From Lachnospiraceae bacterium (GTDB taxonomy: Bacteria; Bacillota; Clostridia; Lachnospirales; Lachnospiraceae), in the NCBI GenBank assembly GCA_017411305.1, contig JAFQQI010000009.1, positions 1-64,000 on the forward strand: a stretch of 64,000 nt of DNA, written 5' to 3'. Under the pieces are notes generated by a model. It was not told the origin of the DNA, did no database searches, and was given only the letters and a program-made list of their open reading frames with translations. This document shows, piece after piece, positions 4,311 through 32,719 of this stretch (its first letter is position 1; each line of letters begins with the position of its first letter). A program made the position numbers and the translations under genes.

Positions 4311-4769
4311 ATGTGTTTTGTTTGTGACAGAATTAATATGATTAAAGACGGAACGAATCCATATTTTGTAAAAGAATTGGAGACAGGATATGTTGTTATC
4401 GGAGATAACCAGCATTTTAAGGGTTATTCCCTATTCTTGTGTAAAGAGCATATAACAGAACTGTTTCAGTTGGATTGTTCAACTAAAATGAAATTTTTAG
4501 AGGAAATGTCTGTTGTTGCCGAAGCAGTTTCAAAGGCATTTAATGCTGAAAAAATGAATTATGAGTTGCTGGGAAACGGAGATACTCATTGTCATTGGCA
4601 TCTGTTTCCCAGAAAAAGTGGCGATATTGAAAACTATGGAAACAATGGAAAAGGACCTGTTTGGTGGTATCCGATGGAAAAAATGTATAGTGATGAAAAT
4701 CGCCCTTCTGATACAGAACTGGAAGAAATGAAGGCAAAACTATCGGAAGAATTAGAAAAGCTGTTGTGA
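4311..4769 (+). CDS. HIT family nucleotide-binding protein
   Basis: This protein of 152 residues has the histidine-triad motif at residues 93-97 (HCHWH), and the N-terminal CFVC and later CKEH could bind zinc, as in several HIT proteins. HIT enzymes hydrolyse or transfer nucleotidyl groups from compounds such as AMP-lysine or Ap4A. The ATG at 4311 is chosen over the in-frame GTG at 4305 because AAGGAGGTG lies 5-8 bases before the ATG and overlaps the GTG. It immediately follows the Nudix gene, and a joint role in clearing odd nucleotides is an inference. Confidence 0.85.
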   Translation: MCFVCDRINMIKDGTNPYFVKELETGYVVIGDNQHFKGYSLFLCKEHITELFQLDCSTKMKFLEEMSVVAEAVSKAFNAEKMNYELLGNGDTHCHWHLFPRKSGDIENYGNNGKGPVWWYPMEKMYSDENRPSDTELEEMKAKLSEELEKLL

Positions 4770-26893: not shown

Positions 26894-27448
26894 ATGGATA
26901 AACAGTTTGGCATTTTATTATTGGATTGTGTACATTCCGATTTTTTTGAGCAAGAGAATATTCGTAATTTGCCTGAACATGAGGTTTATGAAGAAATGTA
27001 TTTGCCATTGCATGAATTCAATCCTAAGCAATATGACAAAAAAATGGACGATGCAATTACTTTCGGATATTATGACGGTGGTATTGATGAACTATTGGAA
27101 GCAGTAAAGAAAGTGATTCCTGAATGGGTTCAATATTATGACAATAAGCAGAGAGTATATTGTGGTTTTATAGACGGAAAGATTGCCAGCTTTTGTCTTG
27201 TTGAGGATATGGGCGTACATAATATATACGGTCGCAAGATCAAATTAGGAGGTCCCGGATGTGTGGGAACGATTCCGGAATATCGTCACAGCGGAATTGG
27301 ACTGACTATGGTTAAAAATGTAACTCAGATTTTGAAGGATGAAGGCTATGACTATAGTTATATCCATTATACCGGTGTGGCGCCTTGGTATGCAAAGCTT
27401 GGATATCAGACTACACCTAAGTGGAATAAGAATGGCCCCTGTGCTTAA
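26894..27448 (+). CDS. GNAT family N-acetyltransferase
   Basis: This protein of 184 residues has the acetyl-CoA loop VGTIPEYRHSGIGLTMVKNVTQIL and the closing strand YIHYTGVAPWYAKLGYQTTPKW. The N-terminal 90 residues are helical and unlike the shorter GNATs nearby. GGAGG lies 8 bases before the ATG. The substrate is unknown. It opens the second stretch of small accessory genes. Confidence 0.8.
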   Translation: MDKQFGILLLDCVHSDFFEQENIRNLPEHEVYEEMYLPLHEFNPKQYDKKMDDAITFGYYDGGIDELLEAVKKVIPEWVQYYDNKQRVYCGFIDGKIASFCLVEDMGVHNIYGRKIKLGGPGCVGTIPEYRHSGIGLTMVKNVTQILKDEGYDYSYIHYTGVAPWYAKLGYQTTPKWNKNGPCA

Positions 27449-27552
27449 GCAGATTTATCGAAAATTCCACCTAAATTCTCCAATTAAGGGATGTTGTTTT
27501 TGATGGAAAAAGATAGTATTTCTTTAGAAACAATAAACGGGAGGTAAAGGAA

Positions 27553-28016
27553 ATGAACCAATTAGTGACAGGGAAATTTATATCACAAAAGAGGAAGGAA
27601 AAAAATTTAACACAGGAGCAATTGGCAGAAAAACTTGGAGTATCTAATAAAACAGTTTCAAAATGGGAAACGGGTAAATGTATGCCGGATTATTCTGTGG
27701 TTAAGAGTTTATGTGAAGAATTAGAAATTTCAGTTGCAGAATTGATGGATGGAGAAGCAGCAGAAGAAAAAAGCGTTCGTACATATGATGAGGAACAGAT
27801 TATGGATTTATTAAGAAGAACGCAGGAATTAGAGAAGCAAAAAAATACATTATATGGAATCGTGTTAATAGTAATGGGAATTGCGTTACTGGCACTTTCG
27901 CATACACTTGGTGGCACCGCTTTACAAGATTTTTTTCAGGGCTTATGTTAGGTCTTTCAATCGGAGAAATGTTAGTCGGTGTTTATTTAGTAGGAAGAAG
28001 TATAGCGGGTAGATAA
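27553..28016 (+). pseudogene. XRE regulator with C-terminal membrane segments, frameshifted
   Basis: An intact helix-turn-helix (residues 5-60, QEQLAEKLGVSNKTVSKWETGK) is followed by a linker and one membrane helix (LYGIVLIVMGIALLALSH). The frame stops at 27951 after a run of seven Ts. Adding one T restores DFFSGLMLGLSIGEMLVGVYLVG through 28016, which completes a second hydrophobic segment typical of this family. The shift could be a real inactivation, a slippery phase-variable tract or a sequencing error. GGGAGG precedes the ATG. The truncated 132-residue product would still bind DNA. Confidence 0.7.
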
Positions 28017-28046
28017 CTTCAATTTGTAAGGAATCGGGAGGAAATC

Positions 28047-28481
28047 GTGGTAAGAATAGCGACGGCAAATGATGCAGAGCAATTAAGTATTCTGAATGAA
28101 GAATTCAATGGTAAAGATGAAACAACTGTTGAACATATCAAAGAGTTCCTTTTACATAACGAGCAGGAGGTAGTTGTTGTAGATGATGAAAACGGAGTAT
28201 TGACCGGATTTATTTGTGTACAGCTTAAGAAATCATTTTGCTATGATGTATACACGGCAGAGGTTACGGAAGTATATGTAAATCCGCTGCATAGAAGAAG
28301 GGGAATTGCAAGTGCAATGATAACCTTTGCAGAAGATTATTGCAACAGAAACTACCCGCTTTATAAATTTGAGCTTTTGACAGGAAAAGAAAATATGATA
28401 GCACAGTCTGTGTACCGTAAGCTTGGTTATGAGGATGATAAAGAGCTCCATTTTACAAAACGGACAGGAAAAGGTGTTTGA
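28047..28481 (+). CDS. GNAT family N-acetyltransferase
   Basis: The 144-residue protein starts at GTG with GGGAGG 6 bases upstream. Motif A, VTEVYVNPLHRRRGIASAMITFAEDYC, and the C-terminal YRKLGYEDDKELHFTK are clear GNAT features, similar in style to aminoglycoside 3-N-acetyltransferase type I and related small enzymes. Substrate specificity cannot be assigned. The GrpB-like gene starts 14 bases after the stop with a strong ribosome site. Confidence 0.82.
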   Translation: MVRIATANDAEQLSILNEEFNGKDETTVEHIKEFLLHNEQEVVVVDDENGVLTGFICVQLKKSFCYDVYTAEVTEVYVNPLHRRRGIASAMITFAEDYCNRNYPLYKFELLTGKENMIAQSVYRKLGYEDDKELHFTKRTGKGV

Positions 28482-28494
28482 GAGGAGGCGCAAA

Positions 28495-29055
28495 ATGGGT
28501 AAAAAACTATCAGAAATGACTCTGAAAGAACTGTGGCAGTTGTTTCCCATCTTTTTAACAGAGCATCAAAGCTGTTGGAAAGAATGGTATGAGCAAGAAG
28601 CAGCATTTGTGAAGAATGTCATCCCTAAGGCTAAGAGAATAAGTCATATAGGCAGCACGGCAATCAGCTCCATATGGGCGAAACCGATTATTGATATTCT
28701 TGTGGAGGTTTCAAAAGAATGTGATTTGCCTGATATCAAGGACGCATTGGTAAGTAGTGGCTATATTTGCATGAGTCAAAGCACGGATAGAATTTCTTTT
28801 AATAAAGGATATACGGAAAACGGATTTGCTGAAAAAGTGTTCCATTTGCATTTAAGGTATGTGGGAGACAATGATGAATTATATTTCAGGGATTATCTTG
28901 TGGAACATCCCGATATTGCAGCAGAATATGAGAAAATGAAGTTAATGCTGTGGAAGGAATATGAGCATAACAGAGACGGATATACCAATGCTAAGACGGA
29001 GTTTGTACAGCAATATACGGAAAAAGCAAAATTATTGTACGAAAGCAGATATTAG
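28495..29055 (+). CDS. GrpB family protein (nucleotidyltransferase-like)
   Basis: This 186-residue protein of the GrpB/UPF0157 family has a nucleotidyltransferase-like fold. It shows the family core RISHIGSTAISSIWAKPIIDILVEV, VFHLHLRYVGDNDELYFRDYLVEHP and the C-terminal YEKMKLMLWKEYEHNRDGYTNAKTEFVQQ. The biochemical role is not established. ATG 28495 follows AGGAGG; the open frame upstream of it belongs to the overlapping GNAT gene. Confidence 0.88.
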   Translation: MGKKLSEMTLKELWQLFPIFLTEHQSCWKEWYEQEAAFVKNVIPKAKRISHIGSTAISSIWAKPIIDILVEVSKECDLPDIKDALVSSGYICMSQSTDRISFNKGYTENGFAEKVFHLHLRYVGDNDELYFRDYLVEHPDIAAEYEKMKLMLWKEYEHNRDGYTNAKTEFVQQYTEKAKLLYESRY

Positions 29056-29081
29056 AGGATTTAGCTTGCGGAGGGAACGAT

Positions 29082-29579
29082 ATGTATTTTAAGTATTGTG
29101 CAAAGTGTGGAGAAAAACTAAACGATATTAAGTGTGGGGATGATTTTTGCAAGATATGTCCTTCCTGTAAGCAAATTTATGGTAGTAGTCCCTTTCCTGT
29201 TGTTGAAGTATTGGTGGTAAATGAGTTTAATGAGATTTTATTGTTAAAGCAAAATTATATATCAGAATCAAAATGGACAGTAGTTTCAGGCTATGTTAAC
29301 GATGCAGAGACGCTTGAAGAAGCAGTTGCCAGAGAAGTAAAAGAAGAAACCGGACAAACTGTTATAAAATGTCAATACATATCCAGCTATTACTTTGAAC
29401 CTAAGCAGTTAATTATGATTGGTTTTTTGGTTTATGTGAATAAGGCAGAATTTAGTATATCGAGTGAAGTAAATGATATTCGTTGGTACAAAATAGACGA
29501 AGTCGATGCAGTGATTGCAAGAGAAAATAATTGTTCCGGTATGCATTTTGACAAATGCCGTCCGTATCTGGAGAATTAA
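29082..29579 (+). CDS. Nudix hydrolase with N-terminal zinc ribbon (second copy)
   Basis: The 165-residue protein has an N-terminal cysteine-rich ribbon (Cys6, Cys9, Cys26, Cys29) and a full Nudix box at 70-92 (G-x5-E-x7-RE-V-K-EE-T-G). It shares domain order, the LLxQNY strand and YISSY segment with the gene at 3810, so the two are paralogues or parallel acquisitions. The substrate is unknown. GGAGG lies before the ATG. Confidence 0.86.
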   Translation: MYFKYCAKCGEKLNDIKCGDDFCKICPSCKQIYGSSPFPVVEVLVVNEFNEILLLKQNYISESKWTVVSGYVNDAETLEEAVAREVKEETGQTVIKCQYISSYYFEPKQLIMIGFLVYVNKAEFSISSEVNDIRWYKIDEVDAVIARENNCSGMHFDKCRPYLEN

Positions 29580-29604
29580 TGAACGAGAAAGGGTTAATAA
29601 AGAA

Positions 29605-30003
29605 ATGTACTATGTTTCAACAGAAAAGAAAATAGATATTCGACAACTGATGAAGTTAATGAAGCAAACCTATTGGGCGCCGGAACGGTCAGAAGAGGAT
29701 GTTCTTACCGCTGTCAAAAATTCGATTTCATTCGGTGCATTTGATGAAGAAGACAATCTTGTGGGATTTGCCAGAGTGGTAACAGACTTCGTGTCAATTT
29801 GGTATTTGTGTGATGTAATTGTAGATGAAAAACACAGAGGGCAAGGAATAGGGAAAATGCTTATTTCTGCAGTGGCATCTGATGAGCGTTTTGCAAAAGC
29901 ATCTGCTTTGTTAAAGACCAAAGATGCACATGGTCTGTATAGGAAATATGGTTTTATGGATGTGGATGCTAATAGAGTAATGTATAGGGAGAAAAGGGAT
30001 TAA
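29605..30003 (+). CDS. GNAT family N-acetyltransferase
   Basis: This small protein of 132 residues has the GNAT A motif LCDVIVDEKHRGQGIGKMLISAV and the ending KDAHGLYRKYGFMDVDANRVMYR, characteristic of the YitI/YhhY-like short acetyltransferases. ATG 29605 is used because upstream in-frame sequence belongs to the Nudix gene. The ribosome site is poor (GGGTTAATAAAGAA). The gene is followed by an unusual 458-base gene-free gap. Confidence 0.78.
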   Translation: MYYVSTEKKIDIRQLMKLMKQTYWAPERSEEDVLTAVKNSISFGAFDEEDNLVGFARVVTDFVSIWYLCDVIVDEKHRGQGIGKMLISAVASDERFAKASALLKTKDAHGLYRKYGFMDVDANRVMYREKRD

Positions 30004-30019
30004 GAGAAATCATAATACT

Positions 30020-30303
30020 AGGATAAATTTGTTTTTTTTGGTGTTTTATCCTGGAAAAATGTTAGCTTTTTTATGAAAACATGAAAGGTGTATGGGCAAA
30101 GTAGGATAAGATTTCGATTTTTGAAAAATTATCCTATATTTTGACAGAAAAAGCTTTAATTGAGACGCGATGTTTAAGAAAATACAGGATAAAATGACAA
30201 ATGCATATGATCTTATCCAATGAAAGATTTACATAAAATCGACAAAGCGTCTTTACATGTCAAAAAAGTAGGATAGAAATAGAATTATTGGAATTATTAT
30301 CCG
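30020..30303. repeat. Phased array of four AGGATAA...TTATCC inverted-repeat units
   Basis: Four units each pair AGGATAA (AGGATAG in the last) with TTATCC over 19-20 unrelated bases. They start at 30020, 30103, 30186 and 30270, a spacing of 83, 83 and 84. Exactly 50 bases lie between successive units. The sequence inside and between units is not conserved, so this is not a CRISPR array or a simple tandem repeat. Each unit could be a short RNA hairpin or a two-headed protein site. The gap 30004-30461 contains no supported gene. Confidence 0.75.
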
Positions 30304-30461
30304 TTGGTTCGGGAAATTGCTCTGCTCATAGGATTTCGAATCATTACTAAGAGGAAAATGTCTATTGGGCAAATGCATATACATCAACATACAATGCTAA
30401 TCGGGAATAGACACAAATATGTGGAGGATATTTAAGTAAATTTTAATCTTGAGGAGGCAAT

Positions 30462-31067
30462 ATGGCAAATTTAATTATCATATGCGGTCCCCAGGCCGTA
30501 GGCAAGATGACTGTTGCGGAAAGCTTAAGAGACAAGCTAAAGTATAATTTGATGATGAATCATGACAGTATTGAGATATCAGATAAAATATTCGGCTTTG
30601 CAACTCCGGCCCAGCATGAGTTTAATGCTATTTTTCGGGAAAAAGCATTTGAGATGGCAGTTAAGCATAACGTGGACCTGCTGTTTACTTATGTTTGTGC
30701 ATTTGAAATGCAGCAGGAGAGAGAATACCTGACCGGATTAGCCGATTTGTTTCAGGCAAATGGTGGGAATTTTTATTTTGTGGAGCTAAGTGCAGATTTA
30801 GAAACCAGACTTGAGAGAAACGAAACCCCTCACCGGATGGAAATGAAAGCTTCTAAAAGAGATGTTGAATGGAGCAAGACCAATCTTTTGCGTGATGCCA
30901 AGAAGCATAAGCTCAATTCAGAGGATGATGAGGTATGGTTTGAAAATCACATCAAAATAGATAATACAAATTTAGAGCCTGATGAGGTTGCTGATATGAT
31001 TATCAGAAAGTTTGCCCTTGCAGCAAATGATAAAGAAGAAAAGGAATACCGGTTTGGTGTACATTAA
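30462..31067 (+). CDS. P-loop kinase-like ATPase
   Basis: This protein of 201 residues has a P-loop GPQAVGKMT (9-17), a Walker B-like hydrophobic stretch VDLLFTYVCAF and a late arginine-rich lid region (RLERNETPHRMEMKASKR). This resembles small-molecule kinases such as shikimate or chloramphenicol phosphotransferase-like proteins. No specific substrate is evident. GAGGAGG precedes the ATG. It is the first gene after the inverted-repeat array and could be controlled by it. Confidence 0.8.
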   Translation: MANLIIICGPQAVGKMTVAESLRDKLKYNLMMNHDSIEISDKIFGFATPAQHEFNAIFREKAFEMAVKHNVDLLFTYVCAFEMQQEREYLTGLADLFQANGGNFYFVELSADLETRLERNETPHRMEMKASKRDVEWSKTNLLRDAKKHKLNSEDDEVWFENHIKIDNTNLEPDEVADMIIRKFALAANDKEEKEYRFGVH

Positions 31068-31096
31068 TCGAGGAAAGCGGTAGAGGATAATTTCAA

Positions 31097-31669
31097 ATGG
31101 ATATAGAAATCAGAGTTGCAAGAGAAGAAGATGTAAAAGAATTATTAAATATCTATGCCTATTATGTTGCAAATACAGCAATTACTTTTGAACATGAAGT
31201 GCCGACGATAGAAGAATTTACCGGCAGAATAAAAGAGACACTTAAGCAATATCCCTATTTGGTGGCATTGATTGACGGAAAGATAGCAGGATATATTTAT
31301 GCAGGCAGATTCAGAACAAGGGCATCTTATGCGTGGAGTGCATCTACATCCGTATACATAGATAAGAAGTATCGCCGGATGGGAATCGGAAAGATGCTTT
31401 ATGAAGAGCTTGAAAGCATTTTGGCAAAACAAAATATTATTAATGTATATGCCGGTATTGCCAGTCCGGTACAAGAGGATGAATATCTTACACGAAACAG
31501 TGAATATTTTCATGAGTCTATAGGCTACAAGATGGTTGCAAAATATCATGAATGCGCAAGTAAATTTGGCAAATGGTACGATTTGATTGAAATGGAAAAA
31601 ATAATAGGAGAGCGTTCCTGTCCGCCGAAGGAGTTTGTTCCGTTTAAAAAATTGATTGATGAGAGATAA
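31097..31669 (+). CDS. GNAT family N-acetyltransferase (phosphinothricin acetyltransferase-like)
   Basis: This 190-residue protein has the pattern of the Pat/YncA subgroup: IRVAREEDVKELLNIYAYYV, TAITFEHEVPTIEEF, FRTRASYAWSASTSVYIDKKYRRMGIGKMLYEEL and FHESIGYKMVAKYHECASKFGKWYDLIEMEK. The subgroup acetylates amino-acid-like or small amine compounds; the substrate here is unproven. It is 29 bases downstream of the kinase-like gene. Confidence 0.87.
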   Translation: MDIEIRVAREEDVKELLNIYAYYVANTAITFEHEVPTIEEFTGRIKETLKQYPYLVALIDGKIAGYIYAGRFRTRASYAWSASTSVYIDKKYRRMGIGKMLYEELESILAKQNIINVYAGIASPVQEDEYLTRNSEYFHESIGYKMVAKYHECASKFGKWYDLIEMEKIIGERSCPPKEFVPFKKLIDER

Positions 31670-31700
31670 ATTCTGATACATATAAGGAGATAAAGGAAAA

Positions 31701-32324
31701 ATGAATATCATTCCCTTTTCAGATGAAATGGATAAATATTTAAAAGCTGATGATGTAATTGATTTTGGAAATGAAGAGATTACACAGCTGGCTGATGCAT
31801 TATTTCAAAAAGCAGATAGTGAGCTAGATTATATTAAAATAGCATATGAATTTGTCAGAGACCATATTTTTCATTCGGCAGATAAAAACGAGGATATGCT
31901 TACATGTACCGCTTCAGAAGTACTGAAAGCAGGTCACGGAATTTGCTTTGCCAAATCGCATTTACTTGCAGCTTTATTACGTTGTAAATCCATCCCTACA
32001 GGATTTTGCTATCAGAAGTTGATTTTAGACGATGAAACAGCACCTGTCTTAATATATCACGGACTTAACGGAGTTTATCTGAAGGAATATAAAAAGTGGA
32101 TACGCTTGGATGCGAGAGGCAATAAAACCGGTGTAAACGCGCAGTTTTCCATAGAAACGGAACAGCTTGCTTTTCCCATACGCCCGGAAATGGGAGAGGA
32201 AGATGATTTCGTGGTATACCCTGAACCGGATGTGAAGGTATTGGAAAAAATAAGAGGGAATAAAACAAGAACAGAGCTTTGGGATAATCTTCCTACTGAA
32301 CTGGGATATTTAACAAGAGAGTAG
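31701..32324 (+). CDS. Transglutaminase-like domain protein (second copy)
   Basis: This protein of 207 residues has a complete Cys-His-Asp triad: Cys82 in AGHGICFAKS, His120 in LIYHGLNGVY and Asp137 in WIRLDARG. It resembles the transglutaminase-like cysteine protease group found as single genes in Firmicutes. It is distinct in length and sequence from the protein at 6938 although of the same superfamily. AAGGAGATAAAGG precedes the ATG. Confidence 0.85.
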   Translation: MNIIPFSDEMDKYLKADDVIDFGNEEITQLADALFQKADSELDYIKIAYEFVRDHIFHSADKNEDMLTCTASEVLKAGHGICFAKSHLLAALLRCKSIPTGFCYQKLILDDETAPVLIYHGLNGVYLKEYKKWIRLDARGNKTGVNAQFSIETEQLAFPIRPEMGEEDDFVVYPEPDVKVLEKIRGNKTRTELWDNLPTELGYLTRE

Positions 32325-32365
32325 ACAAAGAATAATAATTGTATTGATATGAAGAGGTAGTGCAA

Positions 32366-32719
32366 ATGAAAAATATGAAGAGTAACAAAGAGTTCTGGAA
32401 TGCATTAGATGAACTGATTAGCAGTTCTGAAATCGTCATTGACAGACCAAAAGGAACTGTACATCCCCAATATCCTAATTTTATTTATAGAGTAAATTAT
32501 GGCTATTTGAAAAACACTACGTCAATGGATGGTGCAGGAATCGATGTGTGGGTAGGAACCGGCGATAAAAAAGTAGATGCGGTCATGTGTACGGTTGACT
32601 TAATGAAAAAAGATTCCGAAATAAAAGTATTAATAGGATGCACAGAGGAAGAAAAAGCCATTGTATATCAAACACATAACGAATCACCATATATGAAAGG
32701 TATTTTGATATATAGATAG
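32366..32719 (+). CDS. Inorganic pyrophosphatase-like protein
   Basis: The 117-residue protein contains IVIDRPKGTVHPQYPNFIYRVNYGYL followed by MDGAGIDVWVG, which resembles the substrate-binding and metal-binding parts of family I inorganic pyrophosphatases. It is shorter than typical members (about 170 residues) and has fewer acidic metal ligands, so true pyrophosphatase activity is uncertain. ATG 32366 has GAAGAGG 8 bases upstream; an in-frame GTG at 32360 is less likely. Confidence 0.72.
   Translation: MKNMKSNKEFWNALDELISSSEIVIDRPKGTVHPQYPNFIYRVNYGYLKNTTSMDGAGIDVWVGTGDKKVDAVMCTVDLMKKDSEIKVLIGCTEEEKAIVYQTHNESPYMKGILIYR

Follow-up and report, generated by a model that had tools for sequence, protein, structure and literature searches.

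The arrays described here are probably phased operators to which an orphan nuclease-like protein binds, and the copy at 30020..30303 of the window (the whole 64,000-nt stretch analyzed) is a solo array. This copy is a complete phased array of four units, none assigned to a strand: unit 1 (30020..30052; AGGATAA at 30020-30026 and TTATCCT at 30046-30052), unit 2 (30103..30135; AGGATAA at 30103-30109 and TTATCCT at 30129-30135), unit 3 (30186..30219; AGGATAA at 30186-30192 and TTATCCA at 30213-30219) and unit 4 (30270..30303; AGGATAG at 30270-30276 and TTATCCG at 30297-30303). Its formula is AGGATAR-N19/20-TTATCC, four times over, with start-to-start distances of 83, 83 and 84 bp. The first-pass annotation, made from the letters alone, had placed four inverted-repeat units at 30020, 30103, 30186 and 30270 with a period of 83-84 and 50 bases between consecutive units; the coordinates agree, and the 50 bases are exact when the arms are counted as 7 bases.

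The units are not a product of chance. The pattern AGGATAN{18,24}TATCC matched six times on the two strands of the window (vs. 0.24 expected), a number reached in none of 100 shuffles, and across the window's genome (G000) the TTATCC form gave 15 forward and 16 reverse matches (vs. 0 and 0 for the reversed pattern). These two counts rule out a chance origin; the genome-wide one had been set beforehand as a way of refuting the array and brought no refutation. The annotation's view that the sequence inside and outside the arms is unconserved holds among the units within the window, but not in comparison with other arrays, which are partly homologous in G000 and G064. Homologs of the window array were found at three other G000 arrays (one on contig C39 and two on C70) and three in G064 (66-77% over 71-304 bp), and unit 2 appears to be the best conserved across the four homologous copies in G000. 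No member of the nuclease-like family was found inside the 64,000-nt window; the probable cognate gene of the array is at G000:C56:43882-44673 on the minus strand, and a GGATAA array of its own lies immediately upstream. The tie that the annotation drew to a P-loop kinase gene looks incidental, the neighbours of the arrays being diverse and their orientations mixed. The surrounding segment, window 26894-32719, has small enzyme genes in one direction, labeled from open frames only (several acetyltransferase-like, NUDIX-like, P-loop kinase and transglutaminase-like), and may be an acquired gene cluster.

G000 contains six GGATAA arrays, mostly of four units, on contigs C39, C56, C61 (the window), C70 (two) and C105; in three of them one spacing is 94 rather than 83-84, equivalent to one extra helix turn. 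The search of related Lachnospiraceae that the annotation had suggested turned up further arrays, including in Butyrivibrio proteoclasticus P18. Across a species-genome collection a strict two-unit pattern matched 61 loci, 30 of them with at least three chained units in a later check. Every genome with several arrays belongs to the Lachnospiraceae (Tb.RUG.206, RGIG3179, SIG328, SIG331 and B. proteoclasticus P18); RGIG3012 has a single three-unit array, and isolated two-unit matches in other taxa resemble chance. This recurrence in several genomes with common half-sites and phasing supports the earlier suggestion of an undescribed repeat family. Among 37 genomes of the window's genus the two-unit pattern was common in G000 alone (10/9 vs. 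0-4), and the idea of a genus-wide site was dropped on this ground. In an even sample of the order (392 genomes), perfect single units were present in 11 copies in G128 and 36 in G406, both from one genus other than that of the window; G000 had 2, and no remaining genome more than that. The GGATAA array type is patchy across taxa. None of 108 viral loci had three or more chained units. In Tb.RUG.206, the arrays at L083, L085, L116, L124 and on other contigs are near-perfect 85-bp tandem repeats, often at contig ends; array length may differ among strains.

The spacing of the units follows the DNA helix. With no spacing assumed, we counted AGGATAA/TTATCCT half-sites over 57 stretches taken from seven genomes. 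Opposite half-sites inside a unit were 27 bp (140) or 28 bp (38) apart, and the gap to the next unit peaked at 36, 46-47, 56-58 and 67 bp, all other values below 100 having at most three counts each. In a count of consecutive units, restricted to the 198 that had a neighbour at 55-100 bp, all 142 gaps shorter than 100 bp in the seven genomes fell at 36-37 (15), 46-48 (46), 55-58 (75) or 66-68 bp (6); unit starts are about 63, 74, 84 or 94 bp apart, and a single 111-bp gap probably bridges an undetected unit. All 20 gaps in G406 were 26 or 66 bp. In G128, 27 of 29 belonged to the 36-37 or 46-48 classes, with two exceptions (39 and 44), and the raw half-site count there also gave 33 (5) and 44 (2), mostly from degenerate half-sites. 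The spacing of GGATAA units is whole helix turns, from 5 to 9.

The same period was seen across half-site types. For this analysis one value was taken per half-site type and spacing cluster, half-site words being available for 41 of the 85 family loci. The best period for the 54 spacings was 10.6 bp in a scan from 6 to 20, with a phase at 10.5 of 0.24 bp; the strength of this signal was matched by 0 of 20000 uniform sets. Removal of doubled spacings (n = 42) gave a best period of 10.45 bp, and removal of the GGATAA type as well (n = 37) one of 10.5 bp with a phase of 0.12 bp (0/10000 null sets in each case). A period of about 10.5 bp over many half-site types indicates spacing by whole multiples of the helix repeat. 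The first-pass remark that 83 bp is close to 8 helix turns is consistent with this whole-turn spacing, and the phasing across genomes and types supports its reading of the units as a cooperative protein array.

Phasing of this kind is familiar from LacR looping, whose effect depends on helical phasing in a reanalysis of operator spacings of 57.5-155.5 bp (PMC1762422). The arrays resemble the LacR-type operators described there in being spaced by whole helix turns. They differ from LacR operators in often having 3-8 units in series, with inverted half-sites some 20-33 bp apart, in adjoining a nuclease-like gene and in using many half-site types.

A comparison of flanks across genomes identified the gene that adjoins a GGATAA array in five of them (G000, G061, G063, G064 and G406). 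It is 16 bp from the array in G000, between two arrays in G061 and between two near-identical arrays in G406. The array-adjacent proteins of the other genomes are 45-63% identical to the G000 protein, and the family protein is some 270 aa long, its N-terminal part being variable and its C-terminus PD-(D/E)XK-like. No Pfam family above cut-off was found in the five array-adjacent proteins, no NCBIfam family in the five members scanned and no PDB match better than E 0.1; T7 endonuclease I was a weak PDB match (E 0.23). The PADLOC model PDC-S68 was matched by 78/78 aligned members (78 of the 85 proteins were aligned; best E 5.9e-32), at the C-terminal end in those proteins whose match was displayed. 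Residues E161, D192, E207, H208, G210 and K224 are invariant in the 78 proteins, and by comparison with the fold the acidic ones are the putative PD-(D/E)XK active site. The nuclease label follows from the PDC-S68 match and these invariant acidic residues, which suggest that the family proteins are PD-(D/E)XK-like nucleases with predicted activity. The variable N-terminal part would be the DNA-binding one; it may resemble integrase arm-binding domains. The C-terminal match likens the family to the PADLOC phage-defence candidates PDC-S68/PDC-S69, but those models are about 1200 aa vs. about 270 aa for the family, which has another N-terminus and often an upstream array. The open-access literature searched gave no paper containing the word PDC-S68.

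The family was present in 24 of 31 hand-picked genomes, often in several copies. Among 398 genomes sampled from the phylum, the five matching genomes of the window's own bacterial family contained near full-length members; in eight others the match began no earlier than profile position 75 and was mostly part of a larger reading frame. Three family queries found no confirmed member in viral contigs. Three phage records, all short, faecal and unannotated, matched at 30-35% identity (the best at E 1e-23, covering 91% of the protein), and plasmids gave six matches, all starting at residue 139 or later.

Arrays stand in front of the genes of many members, and predominantly on that side. Under an exact rule, requiring three or more inverted 6-mer units, matched exactly, within 900 bp of the gene, an array was found upstream of 40/84 members and downstream of 9/84, vs. 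0/420 dinucleotide shuffles; 84 of the 85 loci were counted, L395 being without upstream sequence. Five of the loci had been picked for standing beside an array, and without these seeds the upstream count was 37/79; with one member per 70%-identity cluster it was 23/51. It should be added that three or four of the 40 exact positives are irregularly spaced and may be chance (L456, L460, L468). A relaxed rule, permitting one mismatch and requiring four units, gave 54/84 upstream, 9/84 downstream and 0/168 shuffles, with 30/84 members failing it upstream. The exact rule was satisfied by 0/158 unrelated genomic windows, a background drawn from loci fetched through chance pattern matches and mostly not promoter regions. 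The last half-site was 6-241 bp ahead of the predicted start in 41 loci (one at 419 bp) and within 73 bp in 22 of them; such short distances place the array in the leader or promoter region. GTCCGT-type units flank a family member at L473 (G073), numbering at least 8 and at least 10 on its two sides and having a period of 53.

Most upstream arrays use half-sites other than GGATAA; the types include CGGATAA, TTAGCC, TGCCAC, CACCGC, TAGGACA, GTCATG and TACGTG, among others. Half-site and period follow the protein tree. In matrix correlations (Mantel; 39 labelled loci, 27 after collapse at 70% identity), protein identity was correlated with half-site similarity (rho 0.21, 4/5000 permutations) and with period (rho 0.39, 0/5000 permutations). 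The half-site correlation was 0.25 for the N-terminal vs. 0.15 for the C-terminal part, a difference given without a permutation test. In six TACGTG orthologues, the half-sites were 97% identical vs. 86% for the remaining array positions, the half-site columns being defined from one of the six sequences.

These correlations also bear on the possibility that the arrays organise the chromosome or bind a transcription factor unrelated to the nuclease family, the nuclease-like gene being merely one target. By a simple gene call the arrays are intergenic (24 tandem, 10 divergent, 9 convergent, 12 at contig edges), beside diverse genes and with no clear orientation preference: the 97 proteins nearest 55 arrays matched 175 Pfam families, each represented by three members at most. 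Moreover, the GGATAA-type gene was found in 5/10 GGATAA-array genomes (and 0 of 21 other genomes searched, a hand-picked set), so that half of the array genomes are without it: G062 and G066 (completeness not stated), G065, G128 and G255. The best family hit in G065 groups with the CCTAAG/TGACTA types, and G128 and G255, both about 99% complete, have best hits of the CGGATAA type, whose members have arrays of their own and might also recognise GGATAA sites. Against an unrelated binder, differing half-sites stand before members of one family and track its tree, which would call for many unrelated binders, and we consider this explanation quite unlikely. In a separate observation, L366:7132-9647 (G406) and L377:3756-6314 (G128) are one neighbourhood (76.5% over 2566 bp) with GGATAA arrays in both and the nuclease-like gene in G406 only; a gain or loss of the gene at the array is possible.

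The annotation had also raised a string of RNA hairpins and proposed a check of arm covariation; run on 191 distinct GGATAA-type units, that check found none. The left and right arms agreed at the A/G position at a rate of 0.56 (vs. 0.55 expected), and concordance there was higher between neighbouring units than inside units. In G063 units, the inner arm positions were concordant less often than expected. Positions -2 and -3 outside the core had an excess of arm agreement over all genomes pooled; at -2 the excess was absent from every single genome and was also present between neighbouring units. A few single positions in G061 and G065 had p<0.05, about the number expected from 85 tests. The half-sites of adjacent units were alike at two positions, suggesting that some units were copied and that the units are thus not all independent; the same is true of orthologous loci. 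The independent variation of the arms argues for DNA half-sites with no maintained stem, and its corollary, the missing covariation in 191 distinct units, led us to reject RNA hairpins and cruciforms. DnaA boxes were likewise rejected: the DnaA box is TTATCCACA and requires A then C after TTATCC, and A followed TTATCC in 2% of 394 half-sites, T being usual. Rfam 15 (gathering score) gave no match in the window and two in 16 other loci, neither overlapping an array; a known structured RNA family was dropped, no array examined having a match.

An element acting at the RNA level, a leader hairpin string such as an RNA antitoxin array before a toxin, would follow the plan of type III toxin-antitoxin loci. 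Like these, many of the loci here have a tandem repeat array immediately upstream of a nuclease-like gene, and the window units are able to fold as hairpins: on the plus strand two of the four clearly beat shuffles and the other two do not, and the array stretch as a whole gives a more stable fold than its shuffles on either strand (z -3.2 and -3.0), a common tendency of inverted repeats. Type III loci (ToxIN and kin), as described in PMC5086642, have a rho-independent terminator between the repeat array and the toxin gene. A simple script found a terminator-like site in this gap in only 2/41 loci, leaving 39/41 that differ from the type III loci described there, and no ToxN-type family was among the Pfam matches listed for family members. 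Coupled with the lack of RNA covariation in the GGATAA type, the lack of Rfam matches on the arrays and a spacing that tracks the DNA helix, whose whole turns would be irrelevant to single-stranded RNA, these data largely refute the RNA-level reading, and we regard it as most improbable.

A further explanation is that the arrays are non-autonomous mobile repeats, copied and dispersed by the nuclease-like protein, with the phased half-sites as its assembly site. Homologous dispersed copies do exist, in G000/G064, which have one homologous element in common, and in G063, where 143/153 array pairs are homologous, and the gene is sandwiched by near-identical arrays in G406 and by two arrays in G061. 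Seven Butyrivibrio composites examined, of 1.2-1.7 kb, have arrays within a variable interior and inverted ends of 205-374 bp that resemble large imperfect hairpins. Nevertheless, no target duplication or empty site was demonstrated, and homologous pairs numbered only 1/45 in G062, nearly all of whose array pairs have only half-sites and spacing in common; the count was 9/45 in G061, one of these being an overlap within one stretch. Phased spacing is kept in non-homologous arrays. Wide spread is not the rule either: five genomes carry the TACGTG type at the gene locus only, G128 has it there and at one additional place, and G063 has it at two places, neither beside a listed family member. The small number of TACGTG places suggests that wide dispersal belongs to the GGATAA type rather than to the whole family. 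On balance, we think a mobile repeat rather unlikely, although it merits consideration.

Several observations were made in and around these regions. Arrays lie inside composites in G128 (L381:2232-3818, L383:2027-3689, L382 and L384) and G063 (L251, L257 and L260), and a Clostridiales-1 RNA (Rfam RF01699, 105 bits) was found at L260:5134-5300 on the minus strand. In G406, another dispersed hairpin-like repeat is present in inverted orientation on either side of an array (L372:3841-3952 and 4372-4483). Contig breaks adjoin arrays at L254, L255, L263 and L264 (contig ends in B. proteoclasticus P18) and also at L261 and L262, and in four contigs the common sequence ends about 4 bases or less from a GGATAA half-site. 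The breaks fall in a reading frame that we take to resemble an IS110-family transposase gene. Relatives of IS110 target REPs, and by analogy an IS110-like element may target GGATAA arrays.

The nearest organisational parallel concerns the REP/BIME sequences, proposed to be spread by RAYT transposases (PMC2817692). As described there, that system likewise has dispersed intergenic inverted units of alternating orientation and regular spacing, an enzyme gene adjoining its cognate units, and co-evolution of repeat and enzyme, which is seen here in the tree and the Mantel tests. The enzyme is different: no Y1 transposase was among the 25 families listed of 39 Pfam families matched at E 0.1 by 78 members, no IS200/IS605-like Y1 transposase domain was found by Pfam in the five array-adjacent proteins, and the protein is PD-(D/E)XK-like. 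Unlike REPs, the units consist of two short half-sites rather than a covarying hairpin, with a spacing quantised in helix turns. RAYT genes are flanked by two cognate repeats in inverted orientation; here, arrays stand on both sides of the gene in G061, G406 and G073, but over the family they are mostly upstream (40/84, vs. 9/84 downstream). In the RAYT case the presence of the enzyme also correlates with how abundant its repeats are, a relation for which the counts here are the 5/10 array genomes and 0 of 21 hand-picked others with a GGATAA-type gene. By the membership tests made, the system is a member of neither REP-RAYT nor type III toxin-antitoxin; by analogy, it would work like a phased looping operator and be organised somewhat like RAYT-REP.

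We therefore return to phased operator arrays of the nuclease-like protein. The half-site, with the consensus T-R-GGATAA-R-A, would be a protein-binding DNA site, and the inverted pair 27-28 bp apart a unit filled by a dimer. Whole-turn spacing of the units would put the bound protein on one face of the DNA, allowing cooperation in a single looped or stacked complex. The protein likely to bind is the orphan one of about 270 aa, through its putative N-terminal DNA-binding part joined to the PD-(D/E)XK-like domain; each family protein would recognise its own half-site directly, many relatives carrying their own arrays upstream. At these genes the array lies in the leader or promoter region, so that the most likely effect of the protein is to repress or buffer expression of its own gene. 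The solo array in the window would be either a dispersed copy or a retained remote docking site.

Together, the arrays and the nuclease-like gene family suggest an undescribed enzyme-plus-array system; the titles and abstract openings listed from the open-access literature contain no description of such arrays, which is no proof of novelty. A bolder proposal, which we offer as doubtful, is a new class of genetic system, in which an orphan PD-(D/E)XK enzyme would be held on and controlled by its own whole-turn array, with a private half-site code for each branch. Scattered solo arrays would then be docking sites that restrain the enzyme or mark the chromosome as self, freeing or steering it against foreign DNA. 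An unnamed protein family, with no Pfam or NCBIfam family in the members scanned, is in any case tied to a DNA code readable from sequence, and many members appear to display their own binding site before their own gene. If binding is true, the family would offer dozens of natural protein-site pairs for studying the evolution of DNA specificity, naturally graded spacings of 4 to 9 turns for work on the mechanics of DNA loops, and a candidate defence or mobile system of gut and rumen bacteria.
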